A stretch of 64,000 bases of DNA. Origin: a virus. Shown in pieces: positions 3,102 through 34,386 of the stretch. A program made the position numbers and the translations under genes. The stretch lies in the IMG/VR virus record IMGVR_UViG_3300031576_000002, positions 124,001 through 188,000 of that record. One strand, given 5' to 3'. Position 1 is the stretch's first letter; the number at the start of each line of letters is the position of its first letter. The notes under the pieces were generated by a model, which searched no databases, was not told where the DNA came from, and saw nothing but the letters and a program-made list of their open reading frames with translations.

Positions 3102-4113
3102 AAGTGTTTTCGTACAGAGGCTTCAGTCTTTCCCACGAGATAGAGTCGGCGTAGCGGTCAGACTGTGCAGAGAGCGCAGCTACCAATCCCGGCTCTTTGT
3201 AAAGCTCGACGATCTTTCTCGCGATCAACTGCGGCGTAGTCTCGTACACGTCCACCGATGTGCGTGCTACGAAGCTCTTACTCTTTCTCGCGGGCAGGAG
3301 CGCCCTTCCCGGCAAGTAGCGAATCTGTGGATCAATCGCAGGTGCGATAACAGGCATCCCACAGGAAGCTGCTTCTGCCATGGCTAGGCACAAGCCTCCA
3401 AACTTTCTCGGCATGATGAACACATCCTCTTGATTATACAACTTCCAGTATTCGTCTACGCTGGCATGAATCATTTCGATTCGGGCAGGACACGGATTGT
3501 CAAAACGTGCTTGTGTCCGAAGGCGTAAGCAAACGTCAACACCTGAAGGAAGTAGACGCATAGCTTCTAGCAAAAGCCCGGTACCATTCCGGTCGTGGAT
3601 TGCGGGAATTCCTGCAATGTGCAGGATCGTTCGTAATTGCTCCCTCTTCTGAAAAGGCAGCACGTCTCTACTCACAGGAACGGGCAGAAAGACTTTGTTC
3701 CGGAAAGGTACGTCTTCCCACCGCCACAGAGAGGGGGCTGCAAACAAGTCTGGCGCAGGGAGAGAGGAATCCGCCAGGTTGTCCAGAAATTCATAGTTAT
3801 ACTGAAGCACTGTCTTTACGCCACGCTCGCGGGCACGCACATAGAGCCAGAAGTTGTACGGAGTCTCGCACGTAAAGACTATGTCAAGCCCGACTAAGAA
3901 ATTGTCAAGTACAGGATCATTATCGACACGGTTAGCGGGGTAACAGGACTTGTATATCTCTGCACCAGGGTACATAGCAGGGTTAAAGACTAGACCTGGA
4001 TTCCAAGCAGGCTGGATTACAAGCGTCTTGTGCGGACGCATGTGTCTCCAAAATTCAAAGGTCTGTACTGCTAGACCCGTTTTGTCTGCACGCACGATAA
4101 GACCAATTTTCAA
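3064..4113 (-). CDS. glycosyltransferase, GT-B fold, family-4-like
   Basis: 349 residues. The N-terminus MKIGLIVRADKTG and the C-terminal block MPRKFGGLCLAMAEAASCG, where an acidic-site region contacts the donor, match GT4-type enzymes; FLPVPVSRDVLP and HIAGIPAIHDRNGTGLLL are the usual linker and donor-domain strands. The canonical EGFGL motif is replaced by RKFGGLCLA. It starts 4 nt inside the previous gene (ATGA overlap), so the two are co-translated. Confidence 0.8.
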   Translation of the reverse strand: MKIGLIVRADKTGLAVQTFEFWRHMRPHKTLVIQPAWNPGLVFNPAMYPGAEIYKSCYPANRVDNDPVLDNFLVGLDIVFTCETPYNFWLYVRARERGVKTVLQYNYEFLDNLADSSLPAPDLFAAPSLWRWEDVPFRNKVFLPVPVSRDVLPFQKREQLRTILHIAGIPAIHDRNGTGLLLEAMRLLPSGVDVCLRLRTQARFDNPCPARIEMIHASVDEYWKLYNQEDVFIMPRKFGGLCLAMAEAASCGMPVIAPAIDPQIRYLPGRALLPARKSKSFVARTSVDVYETTPQLIARKIVELYKEPGLVAALSAQSDRYADSISWERLKPLYENTFARLLNGDLPLA

Positions 4114-5831
4114 GGTATGTCCGCCGGAGGAGCACCAAGTGGAACTGGACCGTCGTAAGAATTGATTTGCGGAAGAGGCGGATCTGTCTCACGCCCGTCA
4201 AGATGAAAGCTCCGACGAATACTACCTGGCGGGGTATATACCCATGTCCCCCATTTCAACCAGTTAGACACTGAACCTTGAATGCTTCGCGCTACTACCC
4301 CGTACATAACATTCTCGATCATAGCGCGCGCACGAACTCCAAAATGGTTATGGATAATCCATCGATACCATTCCGTCTTGGCGATGTGAGGCTGCTGGCT
4401 CCACTGAATCGCTCGGATCATCGGCAGTCCATCCACATCGCGCGGATCCTTGTCAAGGTACATGTGAAGGCGATAAGGCGAAATCTCGTGCTCCCAGTTG
4501 AAACAAACGTAATTGACATCAGAACGGTTTTGCACGACGTCGCACACCTTCGTAAAAGGTATCTCTCCGAACGGGTGAAAATCGTGCTCGACGAAATAGA
4601 TCAACGGGGTTCTGACCAACGTAAGCGCGTAGCGGGTCATATTGGCTTGGTGCGTATGCCGGTCGAACACGAGTGGCAAACACCCATGAAACGCCGGATC
4701 CCAGTTGCACAGGTCAATTAGACGGCGAGTGTACTCTGCGTAATCAGCCGCTCGACTCTGATGTTCCTCCCGGACACCGTCGAGCATAATGATAATTTCG
4801 CACTCGGCGATTTCTGGGTAGGTCCGAATCTGGCGAATGGCTTCTGCAATCTTGTCCGTACTAGGGTGTGAAGGTATTGGGCTTGACGGCATAAGAATTG
4901 TGACACGATCGCGCAAGTCGTCCCGCACAGGACGCCCAGCAAATCGGGTAATGTCGTCACTAAGGCTCCAAGCCATCTGACGCTTCTTCCCGATCCACCA
5001 AGCAGCCGATCGATTGATAATATGCTGACTGCCAACTACGGAGTTAAGAACTTCGGGAAGCTCGGACCAATGATCTACGACGGGATAAGGGGGCTGCTCC
5101 CCCCATAAAAACTGCCAGTAGTCTTGCTCCTTCGACCAGGTCGGCATGCGTCGGTCACAAATGGGAAGAGCCCCCGCTTCGAGTGCTTCGTACACTCGAA
5201 ACGAATCGGGGCTGTCTGAACCCGCAGGACACAGTACAGTCTGAGATCGGAGCAAAATATCAACGTACTCCTGGTATGGATAGCCAGATGCAAATCCTTT
5301 GTTACTCACAAAGAGGTGTCCAGGGCGCGTAAGAGCTTGCGCCTGCCGGACACACTCACGCCGAAATTCATGCTGGACTTGTCCCGCAAAAGACCACACA
5401 TAGTCACGGGCTCGCGACACGGAACGCGCGACTTGAAGCGTAGAGCGCGTATCGCAGCGAAAGCCTGTGGGCAAGCGAAGGGGAATCAGGTCATGCACTC
5501 CAGGGCACGGGTACTGTACCCACGTACTACGATTGGCTCCGGTCGGAAGTACCTGCCACTGAAAGCCGTGCCCTTCGTCGCTGGTCAGAATACATACGCT
5601 CCACGGGTACGAATTCAGATGTTCAACTATTGTGCTCGCCTGCTCTCGGTACGCGCCCCCGCACACTACCAGTACAGACCCTTCTCCTGGATGATCCCGG
5701 GTCAACCGTTCGTCAAAATCTCGCGGCACAAGTCCGGCACCGTACAGGGTGCCATTTAGGAATTCAGCGACAATGCCGTGATCCCACATTCCCTTCGTTC
5801 CCTGATACCACAAAACCGGGATTCTGTTCAT
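4110..5831 (-). CDS. bifunctional glycosyltransferase (exostosin-like plus GT2-like)
   Basis: 573 residues in two halves. The first resembles exostosin/GT47-type enzymes: SFAGQVQHEFRRECV and LCPAGSDSPDSFRVYEALE, where the donor is bound. The second half, from VTILMPSSPIPSHPSTDK, resembles a GT-A domain with YFVEHDFHPFGE as the likely metal site. Two transferases in one chain suggests successive sugar additions. It overlaps both neighbours by 4 nt in the operon. Confidence 0.7.
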   Translation of the reverse strand: MNRIPVLWYQGTKGMWDHGIVAEFLNGTLYGAGLVPRDFDERLTRDHPGEGSVLVVCGGAYREQASTIVEHLNSYPWSVCILTSDEGHGFQWQVLPTGANRSTWVQYPCPGVHDLIPLRLPTGFRCDTRSTLQVARSVSRARDYVWSFAGQVQHEFRRECVRQAQALTRPGHLFVSNKGFASGYPYQEYVDILLRSQTVLCPAGSDSPDSFRVYEALEAGALPICDRRMPTWSKEQDYWQFLWGEQPPYPVVDHWSELPEVLNSVVGSQHIINRSAAWWIGKKRQMAWSLSDDITRFAGRPVRDDLRDRVTILMPSSPIPSHPSTDKIAEAIRQIRTYPEIAECEIIIMLDGVREEHQSRAADYAEYTRRLIDLCNWDPAFHGCLPLVFDRHTHQANMTRYALTLVRTPLIYFVEHDFHPFGEIPFTKVCDVVQNRSDVNYVCFNWEHEISPYRLHMYLDKDPRDVDGLPMIRAIQWSQQPHIAKTEWYRWIIHNHFGVRARAMIENVMYGVVARSIQGSVSNWLKWGTWVYTPPGSIRRSFHLDGRETDPPLPQINSYDGPVPLGAPPADIP

Positions 5832-6463
5832 GGCACCGCCCTATGAGCAAACATGATACTTTTGTAAAAATGCACGCTATCCAGCGACTGCCGAAAGACA
5901 GAACAATCAGAAAAACCCGCCACCCGACGAACGTCGCCCACGCCAACCACGTCATCGCCGCGGAGATTCACGTCATCCACCAACCTCTTGAAAACGTCAA
6001 GCGCTGTGTCTGGTTTCATGTCCCGCCAAGGTCCAACTTCGGTGATGTACGAAGTGTGAAGATCTTCTACCGCGTAGATACCGTTCGGGTTGAGCCGCGG
6101 AAACAAATGGTAGAAAGATGCGACCTGGTGACTGTTGATGTGACTGCCATCGTCAATAATTATGTCAATGCCCAAGTCAGTAATTCGATTTCTCAGGTCG
6201 GCGTCAGTCTCGTCCCCGTAAAAGACATGGATCCGATCTTCGTCAAAAACCCACTCCGGGTTAGCCTCTAGCCCGTAAATCTGGGCATACGGAAAATAGT
6301 CCCGCCACATTCGTAGACTGCCGCCCTTAAAGACTCCGATTTCCAGCAGCTTGAGTGCCTCTTTACGGCGAGGCTCAAAGTGCTGCTCGTAGCGCCGTGT
6401 ATAGTTGTGCGTGTAGCTGCTCTTGTCCACTTGATAGTGGATTGCTAACTCGTCGAGATTCAT
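5828..6463 (-). CDS. SAM-dependent methyltransferase, macrocin O-methyltransferase-like
   Basis: 211 residues. The pattern YQVDKSSYTHNYTRRYEQHF, then LLEIGVFKGGSLRMWRDYFP (SAM-binding loop), IYGLEANPE and DIIIDDGSH is that of TylE/TylF-like sugar O-methyltransferases. It would methylate a hydroxyl on a sugar made by the surrounding transferases. ATGA-type overlaps with both neighbours. Confidence 0.8.
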   Translation of the reverse strand: MNLDELAIHYQVDKSSYTHNYTRRYEQHFEPRRKEALKLLEIGVFKGGSLRMWRDYFPYAQIYGLEANPEWVFDEDRIHVFYGDETDADLRNRITDLGIDIIIDDGSHINSHQVASFYHLFPRLNPNGIYAVEDLHTSYITEVGPWRDMKPDTALDVFKRLVDDVNLRGDDVVGVGDVRRVAGFSDCSVFRQSLDSVHFYKSIMFAHRAVP

Positions 6464-7155
6464 ATTCCATACCGTTGTCGCAAGACTTCGACGGAATTAG
6501 GCTCCCAGTAGTCAATCGGGACATTCATTCCAAACGGGGTTTCGTACACTTCTTGGTGAGTCTCTCCTCCCCATTTTCTCCGGTAGTAGTCGGCACATGC
6601 GCCATAGTTCACCTTTACTCCACTCTTCATCGCGTGAGCATCGGTTTGGCAAGAAGCATTTACTTCGATTTTCGGCAGCATAAACTCGCAGCCTGCTCGG
6701 TGCGGATGGAGCTTTTGAATGTGCGCGCGACGCATGAAGTCTGTATCTTCAAAGTACGCAGGGTAGAAGTTCTCGTCAAAGAACCCTACCCGCTTGACCA
6801 TCTCACGCCCAATCCCTACTAGGTGCCAAGCCTGATTCGTGAGCAGCCCGAACGTGTTTGCGTGGTACTCCTGGAGTCGGACGACCTGGCTGAAGCCCAT
6901 GTTAAAAATGAGAGACGCGGATACTAGCCAGGTAATGTCTCGATCTTCACGAAGCCCGATGTTCCAGCTACGGCCTACTCCTAGATTTTCAGGGTAGGAG
7001 CGAACCTGGATGCCGCGAGCATGGTACTTGGCAGCAAATCCACTAGGACTGTTGTCAACCACGAGAACATTATCCGTTGGAATATCTAGCGTTTCCACAC
7101 AGCGATCGGTCACACTTTCTACAATGGCTGGAATGACAACAAGGTAGGTCCGCAT
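6460..7155 (-). CDS. glycosyltransferase family 2 (rhamnosyltransferase-like)
   Basis: 231 residues with VVIPAIVESV, VLVVDNSPSG, ENLGVGRSWNIGL and FFDENFYPAYFEDTDFMRRA, the last being the acceptor/catalytic ED motif of family-2 enzymes. The usual DXD after the first Rossmann half is replaced by a hydrophobic stretch (VSASLIFNMG), so metal binding may differ. Second-to-fourth gene region of the glycan operon. Confidence 0.8.
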   Translation of the reverse strand: MRTYLVVIPAIVESVTDRCVETLDIPTDNVLVVDNSPSGFAAKYHARGIQVRSYPENLGVGRSWNIGLREDRDITWLVSASLIFNMGFSQVVRLQEYHANTFGLLTNQAWHLVGIGREMVKRVGFFDENFYPAYFEDTDFMRRAHIQKLHPHRAGCEFMLPKIEVNASCQTDAHAMKSGVKVNYGACADYYRRKWGGETHQEVYETPFGMNVPIDYWEPNSVEVLRQRYGI

Positions 7156-7160
7156 GACTG

Positions 7161-7769
7161 TTACAACACCTCAAGAAGAGTGATACCACGTGGAGTCGGC
7201 AGGCGGAGTAGGTTCACGTCTCGCAACTCGGCAATCTTACCGTGCAAGTCTTTCCCATCCGGAAAGTGCGCGCCGGCTCCATGTAGCGGAGCCGTATCGT
7301 GAAAACAGGCGATGCTCCCCCTTCGCATAAAGGGCCGGTACCGCTCGAACTCGGGGACGCGCAGATGAAACGCAGAATCTGAAAAGAGTAGATCAACTTG
7401 CCCTGTAGGATTGTAGTCCATTGAACTTTGGACTACCACCTTGACAGGTAATCCGTGGCAACGGCCCGCGGCGTACCCCGCCCGAAAAGGATCGATCTCC
7501 AGTGCTACGCACTGTCCATGTGAATTTCTGGTAAGCGCTAGCCCGATCTCGCGGGTCGTCTGCCCCCAGGCAGCTCCTGCCTCGACACACAAGGCTGGCT
7601 GAAGTACCCGTACCAACCCCCCTATGAACTCGCTAACCTCCAATTCCGTAGAATCGGAATCAGTCGAGTGCCAGTTCTCAGGAAGGGGGCAAAGCAGCGA
7701 AGGCGCTGTAAAGCGCCGCTCCGAGGCCAGCTCTTGCGGAAAATACGGATCGTCGCTACTCATGTTCAA
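7161..7769 (-). CDS. class I SAM-dependent methyltransferase
   Basis: 202 residues. CVEAGAAWGQTTREIGLAL is the glycine-rich SAM loop, CVALEIDPFRAGYA the acidic ribose contact, and DLLFSDSAFH motif II; the layout resembles Methyltransf_24. The end AHFPDGKDLHGKIAEL is unassigned. It starts inside the upstream methyltransferase gene by an ATGA overlap. Probably acts on the glycan. Confidence 0.7.
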   Translation of the reverse strand: MNMSSDDPYFPQELASERRFTAPSLLCPLPENWHSTDSDSTELEVSEFIGGLVRVLQPALCVEAGAAWGQTTREIGLALTRNSHGQCVALEIDPFRAGYAAGRCHGLPVKVVVQSSMDYNPTGQVDLLFSDSAFHLRVPEFERYRPFMRRGSIACFHDTAPLHGAGAHFPDGKDLHGKIAELRDVNLLRLPTPRGITLLEVL

Positions 7770-8275
7770 AATTCCTTCCTTACGGCCTCAAAGAGAGACT
7801 GCTCTTGCCACACCCCAAACTCCACAGCTTTCAGGTCCGTATCGTCAAACACAACATCTAATTCCGCGCGCGTCATGTGACTGACCCATCCGTTTTTTAC
7901 ACGGTCTTCAATGTTTCCGGACGCCACGGCGTACGAAAGCAAAATTCGAGGCGCCCACTTCGCGACTGTAGCAAGTGCATGCCGCGGACCGTATAAATAC
8001 TCCAGAATTCCGCTCATCACGGCAGTGTCCGCCTTGAGGCAAGGGGGCGACCCTCTGCTATCAAAATCGTAAAAAATGGGAGAAGTCTCCACACAGTCCA
8101 GAGGAAGGTACAGGCAGTCGGGACTGATTAGCCCCCGCAAGGCGCGACTTCCTGCACCTACATCGATTACGACCTCCCCCGGAACTATCCGAGCGGCCAT
8201 AATTTTTAAGCGCTCTTCCCACGGCGAAAAGTCTTGTTCGGCAAGGCGTTCCCAACGAGTACGGTCGGTCATCAC
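7766..8275 (-). CDS. small SAM-dependent methyltransferase-like protein
   Basis: 169 residues. VIDVGAGSRALRGLI is a SAM-loop motif, followed by YLPLDCVETSP and DTAVMSGILEYLYGP, the layout of MetW-like methyltransferases; the domain is short. Linked by 4-nt overlaps to both neighbours. Confidence 0.65.
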   Translation of the reverse strand: MMTDRTRWERLAEQDFSPWEERLKIMAARIVPGEVVIDVGAGSRALRGLISPDCLYLPLDCVETSPIFYDFDSRGSPPCLKADTAVMSGILEYLYGPRHALATVAKWAPRILLSYAVASGNIEDRVKNGWVSHMTRAELDVVFDDTDLKAVEFGVWQEQSLFEAVRKEF

Positions 8276-9048
8276 AGATCTCGAAGTTCCGCAGGAAATG
8301 CTGCTAAGAGCCCATCCCGAATACTGCTAACGGCAGCCCTTTCCCTGGTGCGCGTCTGAACTACCAAAGACTCAGTAGAACTGTCCTCTGCCACCACTAT
8401 AGGGGTTGGAACTTCATCTTGGTACAGACTGCTGTAATCGTGAAACTTGAAAGTCCCTCCGGAGAGTTTGTCTGATAGTTTTGTCCAGCCATTTCTTACC
8501 CCGTAAGCGTCCGCTACGATAAGCCCGTGAAGACTGGAGGATAATACTGCTTGAGAGCTTTGAATGTCCCGCAAGACTTGTAGAACAGGCTGGCATGGAT
8601 CGATCACATGCACGTCCGGATTCCGCCGCAAAAACTTACAAAGTTCATCATCATTCATGTCTACATAGTGAGGCAAGATAGAAAGTTCGTACTTCACGCA
8701 CTGATCCCATGAGGTTGGGATTAGGTTTGCCAAAAGCGCAGGATCTCCGAGGGCGCTCGGGGTGGCCTGCGGAATGCGGCAACGGGTAAGTAGTCCTCGC
8801 ACGGCTCGCACTTTTGCATCTGACAGGCTGATTGCGCTCTCCTCGAACATAGCCCCTGTTCCCCATACGAACTGGGAGTAGGAAACGGGGATCTCAGACA
8901 AAATGCTACCCACCGAAATCAAGTCGGCCTCTTCCATCGTGTGCGCACGCTCGACGACTACTCCCAGGACTTCCTGCAAGATGAAAGGTGTCAGCTCGTC
9001 CCCGAAGTTACCATGTCGGTAGCCGCAGGTGCGCCAGTAGGCTTTCAA
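8272..9048 (-). CDS. polysaccharide pyruvyl transferase family protein
   Basis: 258 residues. YRHGNFGDELTPFILQEVLG at the N-terminus, VWGTGAMF, SALGDPALLANLIP and AVLSSSLHGLIVADAYGV are the hallmark motifs of the ExoV/WcaK/CsaB pyruvyl transferases, which add a ketal-linked pyruvate to a sugar using PEP. Such acidic groups anchor or mask surface glycans. Its presence among transferases and methyltransferases strongly supports a glycan pathway. Confidence 0.85.
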   Translation of the reverse strand: MKAYWRTCGYRHGNFGDELTPFILQEVLGVVVERAHTMEEADLISVGSILSEIPVSYSQFVWGTGAMFEESAISLSDAKVRAVRGLLTRCRIPQATPSALGDPALLANLIPTSWDQCVKYELSILPHYVDMNDDELCKFLRRNPDVHVIDPCQPVLQVLRDIQSSQAVLSSSLHGLIVADAYGVRNGWTKLSDKLSGGTFKFHDYSSLYQDEVPTPIVVAEDSSTESLVVQTRTRERAAVSSIRDGLLAAFPAELRDL

Positions 9049-10928
9049 AGGAGTTCCGACCAGCCTTCGCGCAAAGCTACATGGCGCAGCATTTCTTGAA
9101 GGCGATTCGTGTAGGTACAGTTAGCTTTCACGAATTCGTGCGCGGCGTCGCGAATTCGTAAGCGCTCGTCTTCATGAGCCAAGTAGTAGTCAATCTTGGC
9201 CTTGAGTTCATCCCATTGATTGTAGCGGTAAAAGACAATGGTCTTACCGTCTTCAAACTCTTCCTGCATGCCTTCAATAAAAGGGTGAATAATGAATCCG
9301 CCCCGCCCAAGAGTCTCGTAGACTCGGTCGCTCGTGTAGCGAGGATGATTGAATCCAGGACATAGTGTATCCCCCACTATGATCTTCACGCTCGCATACA
9401 GTGCATTCAGATCCTCGTTGCGCACAGCCGGCTGCCCAGGCTTGGGCCAGTACCGAAACTGTGGTCCGTACCAAGCTGTCAGGTTCTGCTTGATCTTCTG
9501 CCGATAGGGCAGCCACTCCGGATGGTAGTCGTCTAGCGCCCCGACAAAACCGACATCCGCTGTAAACCTACTGTCTGGGGCAGCCTTGTAACACTCTGGC
9601 TGGAAAACTCCAGCCCGCATGTGAATATGGTTGATACCTGCCAGCCTGAACTGATCCTCTGAACCTCCATCAGCCGTAAAGACGAATTTCGTATTCCAGA
9701 ATGGATCGCCCACGATCGAGTTCTGACGAGCAATTCCCCAGTACAAGTCAAGATGGTAAGAAGCCGTTGGCACGCCGACCGCGTGAAGATCACGGAAGAG
9801 CTTGTTTCCGTCTCCCGCAAAACCCCACGTCCGGGTGTAAAGCAGTAACCGTGTTCCAGTCTCTCGAACTCGCTGCCAGATCGTAGCCGCATCCACTTTG
9901 TTCTCTTGCAGCCGGTGGACGCGGTGCCCCAGCGTTTCAAGAGTCTGAGCTACATGATTTTCGGTCGAGTGCCGAGGCTCAAAATTGCCGATATAGGAAA
10001 TGTCCAACTGTTTTCCTCTTCGCGAACAAACGGCATCCATGAATGCAGCCGTTTCCGCCAGACTGCGCTCGGCTGTACTGAATCTCTGCTGGATCTTCTG
10101 CGCGGCCTCCTGCATGTTTTCCACCTGCTGATTACGACTTCCAGGTCGGCAGTGGGCTATATAAAGCGCTTTGGAGACAGGTTGAATGTCAGCACCGTCA
10201 AACTCTGCCTTTAGCCATAGTGCCCAGTCTTCCAGCGCGGCGTAGTCATCAAACCCGCCTAGCCGTAGGAATTGCTCACGCCGTATCATCGCGCCTATAA
10301 CGATGTAGTTACCGCTTAGAAGTGGACGCTTGCCTGCAATAAAGGGAGCGCCCTTCTTGTTATGTACTACCTTAACCAGAGACGGGTACCGCACATCTCC
10401 AGGTCCCGCAAGCATCTGCTGAATATACGCAGAATCAAGCTCATCGTCTGCGTCCAAAAAGATAAGCCACGCCGAAGTTGCTGCTTCTGCCCCTTTGTTA
10501 CGGGCAGTCTGAATGTTACTAGAATGCACACGGATGATCTCGTTCGGCTTGCGCGTCTGATTCTGCGCCGACAGTACCGCTCGCCCCGCTATCGCATTCC
10601 AGGTCGGCTCGTGCCCGTACGCGGCGATGATGACGGCAACTGTCTCTTCCGTAGGAGCATCCAAGCGCGTCACGGTCACGCGCGTCGCTTCAGGGGCGAC
10701 AGGTGGAACCGCTCCAGGCCGTACAGGCGGGATGAACGGCAGGCGGCCTTTAGGCGCTGACTTCGCCACACCTACGGCGATATTCTGAGCAGACTTCGCG
10801 GCTACATGCGCTTGGCGATCCGCTAGCAGTGCGCGGATCCTCGCGGCCTTGGCAGCGACCGCAGGAGATACGCCTCTACGAGTAGGAATGACAACGCCGC
10901 GCCGCGCCACGATTAGCTTTCTGCCCAT
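9045..10928 (-). CDS. two-domain glycosyltransferase (GT2 plus CgeB-like) with basic leader
   Basis: 627 residues. The first 80 residues are rich in Ala, Arg and Pro (AAKAARIRALLADRQ) and look unstructured. A GT-A domain follows (VAVIIAAYGH, WLIFLDADDELD with the metal site, EDWALWLKAEF). The C-terminal half resembles CgeB/GT1_2 enzymes: DVGFVGALDDYHP and YTSDRVYETLGRGGFI. The first real gene of the glycan operon in transcription order. The leader could be a docking region; this is inference. Confidence 0.8.
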   Translation of the reverse strand: MGRKLIVARRGVVIPTRRGVSPAVAAKAARIRALLADRQAHVAAKSAQNIAVGVAKSAPKGRLPFIPPVRPGAVPPVAPEATRVTVTRLDAPTEETVAVIIAAYGHEPTWNAIAGRAVLSAQNQTRKPNEIIRVHSSNIQTARNKGAEAATSAWLIFLDADDELDSAYIQQMLAGPGDVRYPSLVKVVHNKKGAPFIAGKRPLLSGNYIVIGAMIRREQFLRLGGFDDYAALEDWALWLKAEFDGADIQPVSKALYIAHCRPGSRNQQVENMQEAAQKIQQRFSTAERSLAETAAFMDAVCSRRGKQLDISYIGNFEPRHSTENHVAQTLETLGHRVHRLQENKVDAATIWQRVRETGTRLLLYTRTWGFAGDGNKLFRDLHAVGVPTASYHLDLYWGIARQNSIVGDPFWNTKFVFTADGGSEDQFRLAGINHIHMRAGVFQPECYKAAPDSRFTADVGFVGALDDYHPEWLPYRQKIKQNLTAWYGPQFRYWPKPGQPAVRNEDLNALYASVKIIVGDTLCPGFNHPRYTSDRVYETLGRGGFIIHPFIEGMQEEFEDGKTIVFYRYNQWDELKAKIDYYLAHEDERLRIRDAAHEFVKANCTYTNRLQEMLRHVALREGWSELL

Positions 10929-11125
10929 CGCAGGTAGAGGTTATATTCGGCGCTAGTTCCGCTATAGATAGCGCGTTGCACGATCCGTGAAAGAATCACA
11001 TCCAGATCGTAGTGAGCGAGCAGATACTCTTCCGCCTCTTCCCGCGTTGAGAACGTCCCCACCCGCCGAAACAGCAGCTCGCTGAAGCGCTTCAACAGTG
11101 GCGCTGGACGGTAGCCCGCAGTCAT
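10913..11125 (-). CDS. small hypothetical protein
   Basis: 70 residues, charged and helical (STREEAEEYLLAHYDLDVI). It starts at the stop of the upstream gene (ATGA-type overlap) and runs 16 nt into the large glycosyltransferase. Not recognised; possibly a virion neck or tail accessory given its position before the glycan genes, but this is a guess. Confidence 0.55.
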   Translation of the reverse strand: MTAGYRPAPLLKRFSELLFRRVGTFSTREEAEEYLLAHYDLDVILSRIVQRAIYSGTSAEYNLYLRWAES

Positions 11126-11358
11126 CGCTTTCGACGTTGGTTGATCGTATCGCGAAGGACATCGGCCACGTCCGCATGCTGCTCTTTGCGCGCCTTGATG
11201 CGCGGAGACCCACGTTCTCCCCGCTCTGGCAAGTTTGCAGGCTGGAAGTGATGCCCAACTGCTCTAGGCGTATTCCAGTTCTTGCACTCTTCCAGGATCG
11301 TGAGGCGGGCTACTTCGTTGACGGCCATGCCGAGATAGGTGAGATTCGTGCGGCTCAT
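11122..11358 (-). CDS. small basic hypothetical protein
   Basis: From the ATG at 11358 (RBS-like AAAGTGGA), 78 residues rich in Arg/Lys (NQRRKR at the end). Helix MAVNEVARLTILEECKNWN. Unrecognised. The in-frame extension to 11457 is not chosen because that stretch reads, in another frame, as a displaced Nudix tail. Confidence 0.6.
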   Translation of the reverse strand: MSRTNLTYLGMAVNEVARLTILEECKNWNTPRAVGHHFQPANLPERGERGSPRIKARKEQHADVADVLRDTINQRRKR

Positions 11359-11371
11359 TTCCACTTTGACC

Positions 11372-11466
11372 TCAAAGCAAGTTGTTAACGGCGTAGGCGA
11401 CACCAGAATGGAGCGAACTGGGCAGGCTGTCAAGCTCAAACCACCCCCAGTCATCATTTTTCTTTT
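11372..11466 (-). pseudogene. displaced C-terminal tail of a Nudix gene
   Basis: Directly after the HNH stop, one frame reads DDWGWFELDSLPSSLHSG and ends NNLL-stop at 11372. This matches the end of the intact Nudix gene upstream (EWGWFSPEALPSPVHPN): W-GWF, LPS, H and V align. It has no start codon. It is best explained as the original 3' end of the Nudix gene, cut off when the HNH gene arrived with a replacement tail. Confidence 0.7.
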
Positions 11467-11472
11467 TCTGCA

Positions 11473-12033
11473 TCAACCCGTCTGCTTCAATTTTAACGCT
11501 CTGTACCTAGCTCTTTGCCTTTGCTTAGCCTTTTCCCGAAATTCTGCACGGGTCTTGTACCATCGGTTTTTCTTATCTCTATCCCACTTTCTTACTTTTT
11601 CACGATACGCAGAATCTGTTAAAAACTTCTCTTTACGATCTGTACGAACTCTAGCGTTCCAGCAAGCAATGCAAGCTCTTCCGCCACTAACTGCGCGCAC
11701 ATTAGACCCTTCAAGCCTGTGCAAACCTTTCAAGCACATATTATTTAAGTGCGCTATAATAAAAGGATTCCTCCCTCGGTGACAATTTTCTCTCGGAGTT
11801 ACCGGCTCTAAGTGCTGCGGGTTTACGCATGCTGGAACTCGGCATAAATGGTCTATTTGAAGATTTACTGGAATCGGTCCCACCTGGACGGTGTAAGAGT
11901 AACGGTGTGCCCACACTGCTGTACCGTTTACAGAAGTTTTTCCGTAACCCTTTACATTAGTAGGACCTTTCCATAGCCAGCATCCGTCCGATTTCCGGAC
12001 CCTCGCCCAAAACCTTTCTTCCGATTCTGTCAT
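11473..12033 (-). CDS. HNH homing endonuclease (HNH1)
   Basis: 186 residues. Core LQIDHLCRVPACVNPQHLEP carries the HNH metal site (H, N, H); a second zinc-type pair CIACW lies downstream and the C-terminus is strongly basic (REKAKQRQRARYRALK), fitting DNA binding. The N-terminal FWARVRKSDGCWLW is typical of free-standing phage HNH enzymes. Start overlaps the Nudix stop by 4 nt. Same architecture as HNH2 (13903-14493). Confidence 0.85.
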   Translation of the reverse strand: MTESEERFWARVRKSDGCWLWKGPTNVKGYGKTSVNGTAVWAHRYSYTVQVGPIPVNLQIDHLCRVPACVNPQHLEPVTPRENCHRGRNPFIIAHLNNMCLKGLHRLEGSNVRAVSGGRACIACWNARVRTDRKEKFLTDSAYREKVRKWDRDKKNRWYKTRAEFREKAKQRQRARYRALKLKQTG

Positions 12034-12500
12034 AAGAGCGCTTTTACATTTGGGTGCACAGGAGATGGCAAAGCCTCTGGACTAAACCACCCCCACTCAG
12101 AATTTTCCCAGTTTAGTGCTACATTGCGCGACATCGCTTCCGCAGCGCCTTCTTCCACTTCGACCAGATAAGTAGTGTATGCGAAACCGCCGGAACGATA
12201 TACCGTCTCGCCCGCTCTATGCACTTCTGGCAGCCCGCCAAGCTCTTCCTCCGCTTCTGAAATTGCGCCTGCCCACTCGCTCTCACCAGGTTCTACTCTC
12301 CCGCCGGGAATGCCCCAGAGCCCTGGATCCATCACGTCTTGCGAGCGCTTCACGAGCAGGATTCTACCATCGCCTCGCCGGATCAAAAGTCCGGCTGCGC
12401 GCTTGCCCCACCGCACACGACCTTCCTCGTCACGAGAAAGCTCGCCGCCTTCATCGCGCGGAGCGCCCCACTTGCGTAGAATGGCGACTACTGGCGACAT
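12030..12500 (-). CDS. Nudix hydrolase
   Basis: 156 residues. The Nudix box is GGRVEPGESEWAGAISEAEE: the glycine, the first glutamate and the EExG end fit, but the arginine of the canonical REUXEE is serine. It would hydrolyse a nucleoside diphosphate linked to another moiety, for example a damaged nucleotide or a nucleotide sugar. Overlaps the upstream gene by 13 nt. The last 30 residues resemble the orphan tail at 11372-11466. Confidence 0.85.
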   Translation of the reverse strand: MSPVVAILRKWGAPRDEGGELSRDEEGRVRWGKRAAGLLIRRGDGRILLVKRSQDVMDPGLWGIPGGRVEPGESEWAGAISEAEEELGGLPEVHRAGETVYRSGGFAYTTYLVEVEEGAAEAMSRNVALNWENSEWGWFSPEALPSPVHPNVKALL

Positions 12501-13486
12501 GCCTGTCTCACCAAGAACCTGCCTGTCCGATCTCCAATCGTGAGCGTCTCTTCCTTGAATCCGTAGGACTTAGCCAAGTTTTTGTAGTAGATCGTGACTT
12601 TGTTTGCGTCCAGAGTAGGATCCCGCTGCCGCAGCGTCTCTTCCGTGTGGATCGCAACTCGATCAATTCCTTTCGATCTCGCCCACTGAAGCAGCGTCGC
12701 CATGCCTTCTTCAGCCCAGTCTGCAAAAAGTGAGAGCGCGTACCGCTTCATCTTGTCCAGCTCTTCGATCGTCAACCCTCTTCGCTCGAACTCGGCCTTG
12801 GTCGCTCCGAACCGCCACGGCTCCACCTTCTCCAGCACTTGCTCTCGGACCTTCACGTTCTCAATGCTCTCGACGAATTCCTCGTACGTCTCGTGCGTCA
12901 AGATCGTCTTGGCCTGATCGAACGCTGTGAATACGTCGCCCTGGATTTCGTCTACCAGGAGAAGATCGTTACTGACCTTGTCCAGCCGGATCCAGCCAAC
13001 AGTCTTCTCTCTAACCGGATGCTTGGAGTAATGGCTACCCTTGTAGATCACGTCAAGGAATTCCTCGAACTCTTCGTACTTGGCGACTAGCTCATCAAGA
13101 TGCGCGGAACGATTGATCTGCATGACGATCTGCTTCGCATCCCGGTAGCTAGTCTCGGGATCGTGATACTTGCCGTAGGATACTTCGTACCTTCCCGGCT
13201 CCAGGTGCTCTAGGTAGGCTTCAATATCTTCGCGCTTCACAACAGGCTGGTTTTTTCTCAGATCTGTGAGCTGCTGTGTATACCTCTGCGAGATGCTCTG
13301 GAACTTGCGCTGGAACTCCCGCCAAGGAAGTTGGTCGAGGTTTTCCCGCTCGTACACTCCAAGAACGTAGCGCAGAGAATCTTCCAGCCGGGAGAGCGTC
13401 TGCTGGGGAACGTCTTGGCCCCGGCGCTTGAGCCTAGTTGGAGTGCTCCCGCCTAAGCATTGAATGGCTTTACGCAATCGTTCCAT
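12488..13486 (-). CDS. EIQSD-domain protein, single copy
   Basis: About 332 residues from the ATG at 13486. After a helical N-terminus comes GWIRLDKVSNDLLLVDEIQG, then helices and GIDRVAIHTEETL followed by YYKNLAKSYGF. The same order (aromatic-strand-DEIQ[SG]D, helix, strand, YYxKL) occurs twice in the large protein at 16195-19623. Phage multidomain proteins with an EIQSDWHQ motif share this layout, probably a small alpha/beta domain. Function unknown. Confidence 0.7.
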   Translation of the reverse strand: MERLRKAIQCLGGSTPTRLKRRGQDVPQQTLSRLEDSLRYVLGVYERENLDQLPWREFQRKFQSISQRYTQQLTDLRKNQPVVKREDIEAYLEHLEPGRYEVSYGKYHDPETSYRDAKQIVMQINRSAHLDELVAKYEEFEEFLDVIYKGSHYSKHPVREKTVGWIRLDKVSNDLLLVDEIQGDVFTAFDQAKTILTHETYEEFVESIENVKVREQVLEKVEPWRFGATKAEFERRGLTIEELDKMKRYALSLFADWAEEGMATLLQWARSKGIDRVAIHTEETLRQRDPTLDANKVTIYYKNLAKSYGFKEETLTIGDRTGRFLVRQACRQ

Positions 13487-13487
13487 A

Positions 13488-13823
13488 TCAGTAAACCGTA
13501 TCTCTTTCTGCGCGGCGGTATTGCGATTCCCAAGAAGTCGCCCAGATGTCGTACACATTCCTGTGACAGTGCGGATGGATCCAGGCGTACTGCAAAGTTT
13601 TTGTGTGCGGCTTTCTACAGATCAAGCAGTTAACGACTTTGGGGAAAGCACGAGGTTTCAGGGGTTTCTTGAAATTCCGCGCAATGCTCTGCGCGACCTT
13701 ACGAGCAGCTCTCTTGCGGCACGTCCTCGTACAACGCTTAACGGCAAAGCCTGCCTTGAACTTCTTCCCGCACATATCGCACACCTTCGTGTAGAGCGGG
13801 CGCTTCTTTTTCATCGGCGTCAC
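13488..13823 (-). CDS. zinc-finger protein
   Basis: From the GTG at 13823 (or ATG at 13814), about 111 residues. Cysteine pairs CDMCGKKF and CTRTC, then CLIC and HPHCH, make two zinc sites; the middle is very basic (KRAARKVAQSIARNFKK). Likely a nucleic-acid binder. The GTG overlaps the stop of the displaced tail (GTGA), so it was coupled to the gene that tail came from. Confidence 0.65.
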   Translation of the reverse strand: MTPMKKKRPLYTKVCDMCGKKFKAGFAVKRCTRTCRKRAARKVAQSIARNFKKPLKPRAFPKVVNCLICRKPHTKTLQYAWIHPHCHRNVYDIWATSWESQYRRAERDTVY

Positions 13824-13906
13824 TTTAGAGCGCGCAGCAGCGGACTGTCAGAACCGTCTTTGGCCTTTAGCGCGTAGTCTGGGTCGCAGTAAAAGGAGTA
13901 GTTCAC
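13820..13906 (-). pseudogene. displaced C-terminal tail, probably of the glycosidase gene
   Basis: A startless coding-like frame beginning at the HNH2 stop: NYSFYCDPDYALKAK, then DGSDSPLLRALK-stop. It resembles the end of the glycosidase upstream (YGLVGGADGDSQLLAEL): Y-x-L, D and S-x-LL-x-x-L line up. Its stop overlaps the next start as GTGA, typical of an ancestral gene junction. Similarity is moderate, so this is less secure than the Nudix tail. Confidence 0.55.
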
Positions 13907-14493
13907 TTCTCCGAGAGTTTAAGCAGTCTACGCTTTTTCTTGTTTTTAACGGCAATAAATAGCTTATTATTTTCATAGTAGAGCTTAGAGGCGGCTCTTG
14001 CCTTTTCCCGGTAGACAGGGTCTTTAGCGTACCTCTCGCACTTTCTCGCGGCACTAGCCTGCAACCAGGCGTCCGTGCTTTTCTCGATCCGATCGCGCTC
14101 TGTACGACAGGCAATACAGGTCCTACGGCCTTGGTACCAGTATACGTTAGCACCTTCTAGCGCGTGCATACCTTTTTTACAGATATTGGTACGGTGTACA
14201 ATAGCCGAGGGGGCTTTCCCGCGCCCTATATTCTCTGCCTGTGTACACACCTGAAGATGATCTGGATTCACGCAGTCCCTCCGACCACAAACCATGTGAT
14301 CTATTACTAAGCCCGGTGGAATAGGCCCCATGAACATTTCCCACGCTACTCGATGCGCTCCAACCGGCCTGCCATTCTTAGAAAACTTTCCGTAACCTAA
14401 AGCCTTAGACCCGCTCCACAGAAGACAGCCTTCTTCGGACTCCTGGATATAACTCAAGAAGCGTTCTGCAAAGTTAGTAAGCCGTGGAGCCAT
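13903..14493 (-). CDS. HNH homing endonuclease (HNH2)
   Basis: 196 residues. HNH core LVIDHMVCGRRDCVNPDHLQ, N-terminal FLSYIQESEEGCLLWSG, CIACRTERDRI and a basic tail rich in Lys. Closely resembles HNH1 in order and spacing. Starts about 23 nt after the glycosidase stop and ends exactly where an orphan coding tail begins. Confidence 0.85.
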   Translation of the reverse strand: MAPRLTNFAERFLSYIQESEEGCLLWSGSKALGYGKFSKNGRPVGAHRVAWEMFMGPIPPGLVIDHMVCGRRDCVNPDHLQVCTQAENIGRGKAPSAIVHRTNICKKGMHALEGANVYWYQGRRTCIACRTERDRIEKSTDAWLQASAARKCERYAKDPVYREKARAASKLYYENNKLFIAVKNKKKRRLLKLSEK

Positions 14494-14515
14494 TTATACC
14501 GTCCGGAGCAGCCGA

Positions 14516-15391
14516 TTAGGGCGCCCTACTCGTAGCTCTAAGCTCAGCTAAAAGTTGAGAATCACCGTCTGCTCCGCCTACAAGTCCGTAGCCGTTTTCT
14601 TCACGCCAGGCATACCACGTCCACAAATCCACTTTCACGCCCAGCCGTGCCCACACGGCGGGCGTCTGCCGGAAGTAGTCGAGATGCTCGTTGCGCTTCG
14701 GACGGCCAAATTCGGTCACCCAGACTTGTTTGCCCTTCTTCCACACATCGTCCACCAGCTCGGCAACCGCAGGCACCCTTTCCCATGAGTCCCCGTACAC
14801 ATGCAGCCCGAACACATCTACCAGGTCAAGACCTCCTCTTTTCACAAACTCTTCATTCAGCCGTAACTTTCCTTCATAGGTCGGTGGAAGCGTTGCCGCA
14901 GAAACGAGTAGTTTCCCCGGCGAGCGCCTGCGTATCTCAGGAGAGATCACACGCAACCAGTCTAGGTACTCCCCAAGTGACCAGCATAAAAATCCTGCCG
15001 CACAGTTGTCTACTTCGTTTTCAAGTTCCCACCCTATCACCCGGCTGTCGTCGCGAAATTTGTCCACCAGTGTAAGATCTGTAGAGGATGTAAGGATCAA
15101 CAAGAATCTGGCATTCAGTGGAGAGTTTTTTACCAGTCTTTCTACGAAACTCTCTGTATCTTTTGGAACTTGCATGCGAATCATCGAAGCGACTGCCATG
15201 ATAGCTGGAACATCTTCTGGTAGGGCTCCACTAGGGTGCAGGTGAATCCCCCGCTGCTTGTAGCTCAGCAGCGGCTGCTCGTCCGGGGGCACGAGAATAT
15301 CCGCAAGCTCAGCACAAGAAGCTGTCAGCGCAAGCGCGGTCAACAGAGATAGGAAGCGCTGCAAGGATCGGCCTTTCGGGTAAGTTGACAT
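14516..15391 (-). CDS. lipoprotein glycoside hydrolase (TIM-barrel, GH5/GH39-like)
   Basis: 291 residues. Signal peptide FLSLLTALALTASC ends in a lipobox cysteine at about residue 26, so a secreted lipoprotein is predicted. The barrel has VIGWELENEVDN (proton donor Glu, about residue 140) and QVWVTEFGRPK (nucleophile Glu, about residue 245), plus FGLHVYGDS. These are clan GH-A features. It would cleave a beta-glycoside; the substrate is unknown. Preceded by a GTATAGTAAG promoter 13 nt upstream of the ATG. A phage-coded lipoprotein glycosidase is unusual. Confidence 0.8.
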   Translation of the reverse strand: MSTYPKGRSLQRFLSLLTALALTASCAELADILVPPDEQPLLSYKQRGIHLHPSGALPEDVPAIMAVASMIRMQVPKDTESFVERLVKNSPLNARFLLILTSSTDLTLVDKFRDDSRVIGWELENEVDNCAAGFLCWSLGEYLDWLRVISPEIRRRSPGKLLVSAATLPPTYEGKLRLNEEFVKRGGLDLVDVFGLHVYGDSWERVPAVAELVDDVWKKGKQVWVTEFGRPKRNEHLDYFRQTPAVWARLGVKVDLWTWYAWREENGYGLVGGADGDSQLLAELRATSRAP

Positions 15392-15721: not shown

Positions 15722-16198
15722 CGTCGCTCCCAGCCGGGCCGATACACTACGTTGATCTGGCTCGCTTCAATCTTGCCAATGTAGATTGCAGAGTAGGCTC
15801 CGGTTTCATCATCAATGGCAGAGTTCCAAGATACTCCCGCCGCCTTTACCTGTTCAAGTATCTGCTCCCCGTTAAGGATTAAAAAATCTCGAATATCGTA
15901 TTGGGGCTCCTCTTCCCCAAAGACCTTCTCCCAGAGCGCAGAACCGCCCACGTTAAAATCTGGAATAAGCCGAGTAGCGTCTACTTCAACTTCAAGTACG
16001 GCAGCGTCCTTACCCCCCCGCACTAGAATACGCTCTAGCCCAGTGTTCGGCAGCATCCGGGTCGTCTACAAGAAACGGGTAGTACAGTCCTTTTTCTAGT
16101 TTCTCGTCGAGGAACTCTTCTCTGACGCCGTGATAGAGCGTAACCGTTCCGGCCAGGAGCTTGATGGATTGGCGGAGAGCACTCATACACTGGCTCAC
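15718..16198 (-). pseudogene. ADP-ribosyltransferase-like protein, frameshifted
   Basis: Two frames meet at a run of seven G on the coding strand (16013-16019). The first frame starts at a GTG (16198) that overlaps the large upstream gene's stop: TLYHGVREEFLDEKLEKGLY and DPDAAEHWARAY; the second continues KDAAVLEVEVDATRLIP. Removing one G joins them. The pattern (YHG strand, helix, aromatic, then VLEV) resembles ART/RES-type NAD-using folds common in phage accessory proteins. Either an assembly indel, a decayed gene, or programmed +1 shifting. Confidence 0.55.
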
Positions 16199-19100
16199 CA
16201 GATCCGGGTTTCTATCCCGCTCGGCACGACCAAGAATGCGCGGAAGGGAGGACGCCCAATGCGGGCAGCCAAACGAGAAATCTTACTAGCAATCTTCTTC
16301 TGCCAGATACGGTACGTGTGCTCTTGCTCCTCTTCGTCACCACGCGGAACGAACGAAATCTCTCCCGGCTGGAATCCCATCTGCTGCGGCAGCTTCTCGT
16401 AGTAGCGCCGCACCTTTCTACTCTTTGGCATTCCACCCTCGGAGAGAAGGCCGCCGCGCGTAATGCGCAAAGTATCGTCCGTAGCAAGGTAGAGCATCTT
16501 GACGCCCTTCTCCCTTGCGGCCTCAGCAACGGCTTGAATGAGTGCGTACTCCCACTGCCCCAGCACTTTCTCGATCTGAGGCTTGACCTTGCGGTACATC
16601 GCACTAGGATCGGCTACATCTTGCCCCTTCTCCCAAAGTGTAGGCCAGCCTTTCGGCAAGTCCCTTGAATCATCTGCGACACCGGCTAGCACCTCGTCGA
16701 GCTTCAAAAACTGCTCGTACACATCCGACTGAATCTCGTCCACAAACCATTCCGTATCCGAGAGTGGGTCTATTCTCGCCCAGCCGATCGTCTCTTGACT
16801 CCGCACGGGATGACCCGCGTAAGTGCCCTCTTTCAGCAGGTACTCCATGACTTTCCGAGCAGGTGGCGTCATGCCCTCCAACATCTCTTCTGTCATGTCC
16901 AGGCGGAGAACGGTCTGCCTGACGTTCCTAGATCGCTGGAGTCCGGTCCAGCCCTTGTAAGAAACATCGAACGTATTGCCGGAGCTATCCAGGTAGGCTT
17001 GGATCGACTGCGTGGTGACGTTGTTGCCTTTGACAATACGATCTTTGAAAGACCAGTTCTCAATCCATGGATAGCGCTTCTTGATCTCCCGGAATGGAAT
17101 CGCACCGCCTGCCACTTCTACCTCTTTGAGAAGGGTGCGGAGGAATTCTTTTCCGGGGACGTACTCCACTTTTGAAGATGCTGCACCTGCACCGCCTATG
17201 GTCGCGGGCAGGAATGGATGCTTGCTCCTTAAACTGTTGTACTCCTCTTCTATGTGCTCTACGACATCGTCGAGTCCTGGCGCCAAAGCTGCGGATGAGT
17301 CCAAGATAGCGTGAGCCGCTGTAAGCAGCGGCGGAAGCGTGTCAAAGTGCTCGCATAGACTGCGCAGCTTCTCGTATTTCACGGGGAGTACATCGCCCAA
17401 TTCCTCGTCTAGCTGTTCCAGCAGTGATTCGACAGCAAAATCATGAGCCAACCCTCTGAGCCAGTCGCCCTGGCTGTCGCGTATGAACTTTTCTAGGTCC
17501 TCGTCACTGGCATAGTCGCCAATAAAAGCCGGCCATTCATTGCTGAATTCCTTGACCCAGTCAACATTGTAGCCTTTCGATAACCACTCCATCGTGCTGA
17601 CAACGCCGTAATTAGCGATCTCCTCCTGAAGCGACTCTCCTTCTAAAAAGTTAGCCTTCGCAGAAGGATCCAGTTTACCAAAAACTTTTTCTACGTCATC
17701 GGCGCTCACACGATTCTTAGCGAAGAGGTACTCGTAGAATCCCTCTAGCGCTCTTGCGTCTTCGGCCAGACTGTTATTTTCCGCGTACGTCTTATAGTCA
17801 GACTCGTCCATGTCTTCTACACGGCTCCGCACTTCCTGTTCAAAGTTGTCCTCTACAAGATCCTCGCTCGGATCCTCCATTCTGTACTTGCCCGGCTCTT
17901 CTTGGCAGAAAAGATCATAAAGATAGTCGTGGACTTCCGCGACAAAAGCTTGCTGGCGACGAGTCTCTTCCTGCTGCAAGCGCTCCTGCTCCGCAGGATT
18001 AAGCGGAATCAGTTCCAGTTGCCGCGAATCCGTCGGTATAAGGGGCTCGTACACAGGCGGCTGAAGATCTTCCTGCCCAAGAATGCCAAGCGCTGTCTTC
18101 AAGCGACTGGCGCCTTTACGGGCGCCCAAATCTTTCACCCACAAGTCCGCGTACACTTCCCCGTACAATTTGATCGGGTCTTCAATTTTCTTGAAGCCCT
18201 CTTCTGCGGGCAGCTTCTCGTAGAAGCGCTCCAGCGTCTCGTCTGATGCGCCGCCCCACCGATTCGCCTGGATCTCTGCATTCGTCCAGATCAGATAGCG
18301 AATGTTGTTACGCCGTGCAGCATCCTCCAAGTAATCAATAACCATATCGGTCCAGTCGGAGAATCGGTTAATCAGCGCATTTACAATCCGGTGGACTTTC
18401 TGCTTGCTCAGTTTGTAATCCACCGCCAACTTGCCAATCACTTCTTTATCGAGGTAGCGGTAGATGCTGCGCATGAAATCGCTTTGAATGTTCTCCACCA
18501 CCCACGCCTTGCCAGATTCCCCCACGCTCGGAACAGCAATCCACTCGGGTTCACCATCGATGCGGATGTAGGCAATGGCTTCGCCGTAGTGACCTGGCAA
18601 ACTTTGGCCGTACAGCTTTCGCGCCAGCACCCATCCCGGTTCGCCCGCAATCTGTTTTCCGTCTGCGACAACTGCATTCCAGATTTCATCGGTAGGGTAG
18701 AACGCAAACGTATAGGGCACGTCTGATATTGTAGCGCCCTTGTACTCCTTCTCGCCGCGCTCGACATGAAATGTCATCGGATCTAGGCGCGCTACCGCTT
18801 CCTGAAGCTCGGCTACGGTCGCCTCTGTTCCAATCCGTGCGATAATGTCGCGCCGGATGTAACCCGGCACGTTGCGGAGCAAAGCCTCGATGTCACTCTG
18901 GATGAGCTGTTCATCGGGAGTCCGGCCCTCAAGCTGCTTCTCTACTTCTTGCACACTACGCGGAAGGTGGTCGGCGCTACCGGCATGGTCAATGTCTATT
19001 TCTTCAATTCTTGCTTCTTCTGCCTCATCGCGCTTCTCTTGCGCGATCTCCATGAAACGCTCAAGAGTGGGAATGCCGCGGTTGGAGTAGCCTTGCGCCA

Positions 19101-19623
19101 AATTCATTACCACCCCAGCATCTGCACTGACTATCCAATTATGTTGACTATTAGCTAGAAACTCCTCTCCTAGTGCGTACATGGGATCAGCGTCCGGCCA
19201 GTCTACCCCGTTCCACCATTCCTCTTTCCACGCCCGCAAGCTATCAAATAGCAGGACGTCGATTTTCGCCTGATCCAGACTGGGCAGCACAACCTTCAAA
19301 GCTGCTTCAAGTTCATCGCCGTCAAACTTACTGCTTACGGGGTCTGCCTCTTCAAGAGCATTCCCCGCTTCCTCGCCATGATCTTTTCGGACAATGTCTA
19401 CCGCTGACGACCAAATATCTTTCCCGCCGTCAATGCTTGGACGGTCCTCATCATTCCAATACTCCCATACGTCAAACTCGACATCGGTGCGTCCTACGAC
19501 TACATCAGGAACAAGGTAACGTCCGTAGCGAGCGTCCGCCCCATGGTCCAAGTTCCAGATCGCCTCGTGGGGGAAGAGTTCCTCGATCGCTGCTACAACG
19601 TCTTCGCTACGAATCCCAGGCAT
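16195..19623 (-). CDS. large multidomain protein with two EIQSD domains
   Basis: 1143 residues from the ATG at 19623 (an upstream in-frame ATG at 19665 is less likely). Domain order: acidic N-terminus; helical middle with long Glu/Arg-rich stretches; first EIQSD domain at about residue 370 (VVENIQSDFMRS, then FYEKLPAEEGF); a second Glu-rich linker; second EIQSD domain at about residue 955 (WFVDEIQSDVYEQF, then YYEKLPQQMGF). This is the look of phage polyvalent proteins injected with the genome. No catalytic motif is recognised. Followed directly by the ART-like frame with a GTGA overlap. Confidence 0.7.
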   Translation of the reverse strand: MPGIRSEDVVAAIEELFPHEAIWNLDHGADARYGRYLVPDVVVGRTDVEFDVWEYWNDEDRPSIDGGKDIWSSAVDIVRKDHGEEAGNALEEADPVSSKFDGDELEAALKVVLPSLDQAKIDVLLFDSLRAWKEEWWNGVDWPDADPMYALGEEFLANSQHNWIVSADAGVVMNLAQGYSNRGIPTLERFMEIAQEKRDEAEEARIEEIDIDHAGSADHLPRSVQEVEKQLEGRTPDEQLIQSDIEALLRNVPGYIRRDIIARIGTEATVAELQEAVARLDPMTFHVERGEKEYKGATISDVPYTFAFYPTDEIWNAVVADGKQIAGEPGWVLARKLYGQSLPGHYGEAIAYIRIDGEPEWIAVPSVGESGKAWVVENIQSDFMRSIYRYLDKEVIGKLAVDYKLSKQKVHRIVNALINRFSDWTDMVIDYLEDAARRNNIRYLIWTNAEIQANRWGGASDETLERFYEKLPAEEGFKKIEDPIKLYGEVYADLWVKDLGARKGASRLKTALGILGQEDLQPPVYEPLIPTDSRQLELIPLNPAEQERLQQEETRRQQAFVAEVHDYLYDLFCQEEPGKYRMEDPSEDLVEDNFEQEVRSRVEDMDESDYKTYAENNSLAEDARALEGFYEYLFAKNRVSADDVEKVFGKLDPSAKANFLEGESLQEEIANYGVVSTMEWLSKGYNVDWVKEFSNEWPAFIGDYASDEDLEKFIRDSQGDWLRGLAHDFAVESLLEQLDEELGDVLPVKYEKLRSLCEHFDTLPPLLTAAHAILDSSAALAPGLDDVVEHIEEEYNSLRSKHPFLPATIGGAGAASSKVEYVPGKEFLRTLLKEVEVAGGAIPFREIKKRYPWIENWSFKDRIVKGNNVTTQSIQAYLDSSGNTFDVSYKGWTGLQRSRNVRQTVLRLDMTEEMLEGMTPPARKVMEYLLKEGTYAGHPVRSQETIGWARIDPLSDTEWFVDEIQSDVYEQFLKLDEVLAGVADDSRDLPKGWPTLWEKGQDVADPSAMYRKVKPQIEKVLGQWEYALIQAVAEAAREKGVKMLYLATDDTLRITRGGLLSEGGMPKSRKVRRYYEKLPQQMGFQPGEISFVPRGDEEEQEHTYRIWQKKIASKISRLAARIGRPPFRAFLVVPSGIETRIW

Positions 19624-19695
19624 TGGACCCTCGACGCAAAAAATCGGACACGGCATCTGCCGCATCCGAGGCTACAGGACCGCAACTGAAAAGCG

Positions 19696-34383: not shown

Positions 34384-34386
34384 TAG
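33220..34386 (+). CDS. tnpB: TnpB RNA-guided nuclease, copy 3 (divergent)
   Basis: 388 residues from ATG 33220; a farther in-frame ATG exists at 33181. RuvC-I Asp in TVGVDLGITHPAVTS, RuvC-II Glu in LVFENLKEIRSG, zinc ribbon CSKCKFR/CRSCGF, RuvC-III Asp in IHADLNAARN. Clearly diverged from copies 1 and 2, but the leader CTCTGTGCTAC just before the start is shared with copy 2. No obvious inverted termini. Confidence 0.85.
   Translation: MIQLTLRLKLRPTPEQKSIFYTTSEQHTQSYNYACNFGWKNSTANRIEIHHGVYRAQREATQLPSQLVVSSITRASESLASAKALRRKKKKVACPKSKLCPIRYDSRSSTVNLKEGFAALATVSGRQRVQFKVPDFQLPYIDWKVCSSDLIRNRKGNYFLHVVVSREEEPFIPVKRTVGVDLGITHPAVTSKNKFLGKRSWKNVERRNFKLRRSLQAKGTKSAKRHLQKLSGRQKRFRRDCDRVLSKQLVQSCKKGSTLVFENLKEIRSGNSKGKRFNRKLHGWSFDQLQAFVEYKAKMRGIQVVYVDPRYTSQKCSKCKFRSKKNRISQSSFQCRSCGFRIHADLNAARNIRKRYLFTQAKSLGNGLMSTSLVQRSKDHLQAACFGR

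Follow-up and report, generated by a model that had tools for sequence, protein, structure and literature searches.

How can a homing endonuclease gene enter a coding sequence and leave the host gene whole? A homing gene that lands within coding sequence is usually taken to require an intron, an intein or a host protein able to withstand division into two parts. The question is raised by a tightly packed minus-strand locus in an environmental virus record of 205,227 bases (IMGVR_UViG_3300031576_000002, a single metagenomic contig), of which we analysed a stretch of 64,000 nt, hereafter the window. The locus comprises, in order, a 356-aa gene (13558..12488), a Nudix gene (12500..12030), an HNH endonuclease gene (HNH1, 12033..11473) and a second Nudix 3' end (11473..11372). 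A sequence-only reading had correctly delimited this arrangement at 11372..12500 and had described a complete Nudix end, HNH1 and a second Nudix tail after the HNH1 stop, all of which we confirm. The Nudix gene, the only one in the record, matches PF00293 (E = 7.9e-18) and terminates normally in NWENSEWGWFSPEALPSPVHPNVKALL followed by a stop. Its body (residues 1–132, 12105..12500, 60% GC) is continued by the tail now in use, NSEWGWFSPEALPSPVHPNVKALL and a stop (12030..12104), the final stretch of which is SPEALPSPVHPNVKALL, also written ...WGWFSPEALPSPVHPNVKALL. The Nudix stop overlaps the start of HNH1 as ATGA. HNH1 is an intact gene with an HNH_3 domain (Pfam, E = 1e-10) and a match to phrog_826 (E = 3.8e-40), and it has the attributes of a free-standing phage HNH homing endonuclease, namely an HNH domain with the conserved motif in a lone gene among phage genes.

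Past the HNH1 stop, positions 11473..11372 of the minus strand encode MQKKKNDDWGWFELDSLPSSLHSGVAYAVNNLL and a stop, which we divide into a linker, ATGCAGAAAAAGAAA (11459..11473), and the orphan tail, NDDWGWFELDSLPSSLHSGVAYAVNNLL and a stop (11372..11458), ending in LHSGVAYAVNNLL. This frame had been described as a startless Nudix tail; it does read as a Nudix tail to a stop, but it is not startless, because the ATG of the linker (11473..11471) opens it and overlaps the HNH1 stop as TGATG. The claimed resemblance of the two tails holds, with a BLOSUM62 local score of 69 compared to a mean of 22.8 (sd 4.1) and a maximum of 51 in 20,000 shuffles. When 2332 stop-terminated six-frame pieces of the window were compared, the orphan alone stood out, the query genes' own ends aside; the query of that comparison also held other proteins, and the clean figure is the tail-versus-tail score. 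An HMM of 32 HNH-less relatives, built with no window sequence and run on all loci translated in six frames, recovers the orphan frame with E = 1.1e-5. At the DNA level, 20 of 23 bases agree between the tails, including an identical 12-mer, TGGGGGTGGTTT, which codes WGWF and forms a direct repeat bracketing the in-use tail and HNH1 (copy 1, 12084..12095; copy 2, inside the orphan tail, 11438..11449). The layout is that of an element that replaces 3' ends: a complete host gene, a nuclease gene directly downstream and a fragment of the host 3' end past the nuclease.

A Nudix tail in this position could also be the second exon of a gene interrupted by a group I intron or an intein that contains HNH1, and HNH_3 nucleases can be intron-borne in phages, such as ICP1 (PMC10448857). 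For the present locus this is extremely unlikely. Only about 75 + 15 nt are free outside HNH1, the 75 nt upstream encode a genuine Nudix tail, and no Rfam match to E 1 occurs within 10500..15000; lack of room and of an Rfam match exclude the intron. RNA structure after HNH1 was no better than in shuffled sequences. That the contig is a metagenomic misassembly of an HNH-bearing and an HNH-less Nudix allele is scarcely credible: the record is a single contig and a 12-bp identical repeat could mislead an assembler, but assembler k-mers are normally longer than 12 bp, and no reading frame or gene overlap (ATGA, TGATG) is disrupted.

To decide which of the two tails belongs to the Nudix body, we gathered phage Nudix relatives by alignment-based scans; single-sequence scans with the Nudix gene or the 356-aa upstream gene did not find close relatives. 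The body belongs, by its sequence, to a subfamily with the signature L[DN]WEN[DT]DxGWF, members of which often lie on contigs of 290–530 kb (L182, L188, L197, L268, L272, L275): it scores 109.8 bits against the subfamily HMM versus 86.0 bits against a generic phage Nudix HMM. The orphan tail likewise prefers the subfamily (27.6 versus 22.3 bits), whereas the intact tail prefers the generic model (25.7 versus 18.7 bits), and joined to the body the orphan reaches 152.6 bits against the subfamily HMM compared to 143.4 bits for the intact tail. The orphan starts NDDWGWF exactly at the WENDDxGWF position of the subfamily. The sequence-only reading had staked itself on HNH-less relatives with an ending like the orphan; many HNH-less phage Nudix proteins have one, and all 14 relatives closest in body score the orphan above the intact tail. 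The scan patterns were biased towards WEN[DTE][DE], but the result for the closest relatives stands with those columns left out, and since it is also obtained with only the columns after WGWF, search-pattern bias plays no part in it. Post-WGWF scores for orphan and intact tail were 49 versus 20 in L264 and 45 versus 19 in L182; both carry LNWENDYWxWFxxxxLPxNLHKGVIFA, the orphan counterpart of which is NDDWGWFELDSLPSSLHSGVAYA, and both end in LHKGVIFA, the orphan in LHSGVAYA. Farther away, generic phage Nudix tails favour the intact tail (44/49 on all 24 columns, 38/49 after WGWF), as does the more distant subgroup L006/L186, and among 20 relatives carrying the N-terminal scan pattern the post-WGWF preference is tied at 9 versus 9. 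The signal thus comes from the closest relatives, as expected if the orphan is native. This assignment is statistical, because the tails span 24–28 residues and even the nearest relatives are only 43–47% identical in the body.

The preference of the relatives bears directly on a simpler explanation, in which insertion merely duplicated the tail and the two copies then diverged. The 20 of 23 bases common to both tails around TGGGGGTGGTTT would be its residue, but DNA similarity is lost outside them; moreover, a discarded copy should drift faster, yet here it is the discarded copy that fits the relatives. Because that copy is the better preserved, we consider duplication with drift very improbable.

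We also correlated body similarity with tail similarity (rho) over 90 non-redundant relatives. The median rho of the relatives with their own tails was 0.45; the intact tail gave −0.17, below all 90, and the orphan 0.34, at the 33rd percentile. Base composition separates the tails as well: GC is 60% in the body, 48% in the intact tail, 46% in HNH1 and 53% in the orphan. The intact tail lies below every 75-nt window of the body (51–71%) and within the range of HNH1 (33–56%), and the orphan falls inside the body range; the in-use tail resembles HNH1 in base composition and is unlike the body. Finally, the next gene (11122..11359, minus strand, starting MSRTNLTYLGMAV...) has its ATG about 12 nt past the orphan stop, a gap that is the spacing expected if the orphan were the original end of the Nudix gene.

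Concordance and gene spacing tell against two further explanations. Had there been two tandem Nudix genes, with an HNH insertion or a deletion erasing all of the second except its tail, the order body, first tail, HNH and second tail would result without any exchange of tails. We regard this as quite unlikely, since it leaves unexplained why the body disagrees with the first tail while agreeing with the second, two complete Nudix genes in tandem occur in no relative of the subfamily, and the orphan begins at the homologous point of the gene. The opposite polarity, with a native intact tail and an orphan that HNH1 brought along as a relic of a previous host site, has a precedent in the WHO10 elements of Torulaspora globosa, which carry host-gene fragments downstream of the nuclease, and the L006/L186 subgroup resembles the intact tail. 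It is nonetheless unlikely: it is the intact tail that disagrees with the body and has the GC of HNH1 instead of that of the body, the orphan stop lies just before the next ATG, and HNH-less relatives at 43–47% body identity already point to an orphan-like ending. Given the preference of the relatives, the concordance and the GC content, the orphan is most likely the native Nudix end and the in-use tail most likely arrived with HNH1. These three lines of evidence also support the earlier proposal that HNH1 brought a replacement 3' end and that the original end was left over.

We therefore return to the import of a tail together with a nuclease: a free-standing HNH homing gene probably entered the phage Nudix gene along with a substitute 3' end. 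The duplicated tail, the mismatch of body and in-use tail, the match of body and orphan and the HNH-like composition of the in-use tail can be read from the sequence, and HNH is absent from the locus in all relatives found; cleavage by HNH1, the position of the cut, the donor and the direction of transfer are what we infer. The observation is well supported and the mechanism moderately so. During mixed infection, cleavage by HNH1 would fall close to the WEN..WGWF codons of a Nudix allele that lacks HNH, and the break would be repaired from an HNH-bearing donor, whose tail and HNH gene would be copied in at the WEN/WGWF point. The product would be a complete chimeric Nudix gene (resident body, donor tail), immediately followed by the HNH gene, and the resident's original tail would be pushed downstream as an untethered fragment. 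The displaced native tail would constitute the right-hand homology arm, and with the two halves of the target kept apart, the locus would be guarded against recutting.

Structure prediction gives the chimeric protein a whole Nudix domain (mean pLDDT 88, tail blocks 89–98), in which the in-use tail contributes the final strand and the helix at the C terminus; according to this structure model, the in-use tail completes the Nudix fold. Separately, a suspected lesion of the Nudix box (R81 to S) was dropped because the same position also varies in close relatives (H, D, K, S).

Viral scans and a genome scan found no donor, meaning a Nudix gene that has the in-use tail and an HNH1-like gene behind it; the single match to a DNA pattern of donor tails, in L263, is unrelated. 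Since distant subfamily members split, with L006/L186 favouring the intact tail, the donor may have been a phage like these or one with a generic Nudix gene. None of the subfamily relatives has an HNH gene beside the Nudix gene or a second tail around one. Tail duplication was likewise absent among 80 HNH1 relatives, which gave low-complexity matches only, and at two further HNH genes in the record. Because no second case was seen among those 80 relatives, this layout is either uncommon or soon loses its traces. Another HNH_3 gene (L167, 1261..2100, minus strand, at record position about 16.8 kb) overlaps glycosyltransferase-like genes on both sides by about 30–70 nt; a tail duplication was looked for at this locus, and none was seen.

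Tail replacement is already known in kind from other systems; what appears to be new is the phage and HNH_3 setting. In the published model of yeast WHO elements (Torulaspora, Lachancea; eLife 2020, PMC7282813), a chimeric gene joins the 5' end of the recipient to the 3' end of the donor, and behind it lie the nuclease gene and a remnant of the 3' end that the recipient had before. As we propose for the phage locus, a host 3' end (that of FBA1) is replaced, the order is chimera, nuclease and fragment, splicing is not required, and the fragment has been proposed as a second homology arm. WHO elements differ in having a LAGLIDADG intein-like nuclease with a zinc finger, a eukaryotic nuclear setting, clusters formed by repeated integration and demonstrated cleavage of FBA1, whereas the phage locus has an HNH_3 nuclease, a phage host, one insertion and a cleavage that we only infer. 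HNH1, with HNH_3 only and neither LAGLIDADG nor zinc finger, is accordingly not a member of the WHO family proper, although it would work alike. In mitochondrial mORFs, described for atp6 of Allomyces and for atp6, atp9, cox2 and nad3 of Glomus sp. (PMC3630166), a nuclease ORF likewise comes with an imported C-terminal coding end, the native end lies downstream, and the native tail matches insertion-free relatives while the imported tail does not. Their nucleases are LAGLIDADG or GIY-YIG and their genomes mitochondrial; their polarity is certain because the native tails share 91–98% DNA identity with the tails of a close relative, compared to the 43–47% protein identity of the closest relatives here. 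The phage locus shares with free-standing phage homing endonucleases (T4 mob/seg, Aeh1 mobE in nrdA; PMC2988022) the start–stop overlap between phage genes, and the homing of those genes copies flanking sequence (co-conversion). Known in-gene insertions in phages (Aeh1 nrdA, T4 gene 60 and gene 43; PMC2988022) split the host protein in two; at the present locus it remains whole and carries a substitute tail.

Tail replacement offers homing insertions within genes a further way out, seen so far in yeast nuclei and fungal mitochondria, and a full-text search of open-access papers found no phage case. If true, a phage case would make the strategy cross-kingdom and independent of nuclease family, and it would explain some chimeric phage genes next to HNH genes. 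More tentatively, and with slightly less than even confidence, we propose that free-standing HNH genes of phages can act as autonomous tail-replacement elements, the unit being a host 3' end plus nuclease and the displaced native tail a second homology arm, convergent with WHO elements and mORFs; the orphan peptide, started at TGATG, might still be translated.

Several other features of the window were noted. The 356-aa protein (12488..13558, minus strand) is homologous to the C-terminal part of a 1156-aa protein (16195..19665, minus strand; 23% identity over 285 columns, E = 4e-13), and a Pfam search assigned a family to neither. A 111-aa Cys/His-rich protein (13488..13823, minus strand), encoded between HNH2 (13903..14493) and the 356-aa gene, shows weak similarity to part of the phage HNH endonuclease family phrog_1271 (E = 1.3e-4) and could be either a remnant or a DNA-binding protein of HNH origin. 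The ORF list, inspected by eye, shows a run of glycosyltransferase- and methyltransferase-like genes at 2343..10928 (minus strand), among them one for a 627-aa protein (9045..10928) with matches to phage glycosyltransferase families. Three TnpB/OrfB_IS605-like genes (22702..23874, minus strand; 33181..34386 and 36088..37260, plus strand) carry Pfam OrfB_IS605 and Cas12f1-like_TNB domains, and the proteins of the first and third are 89% identical.
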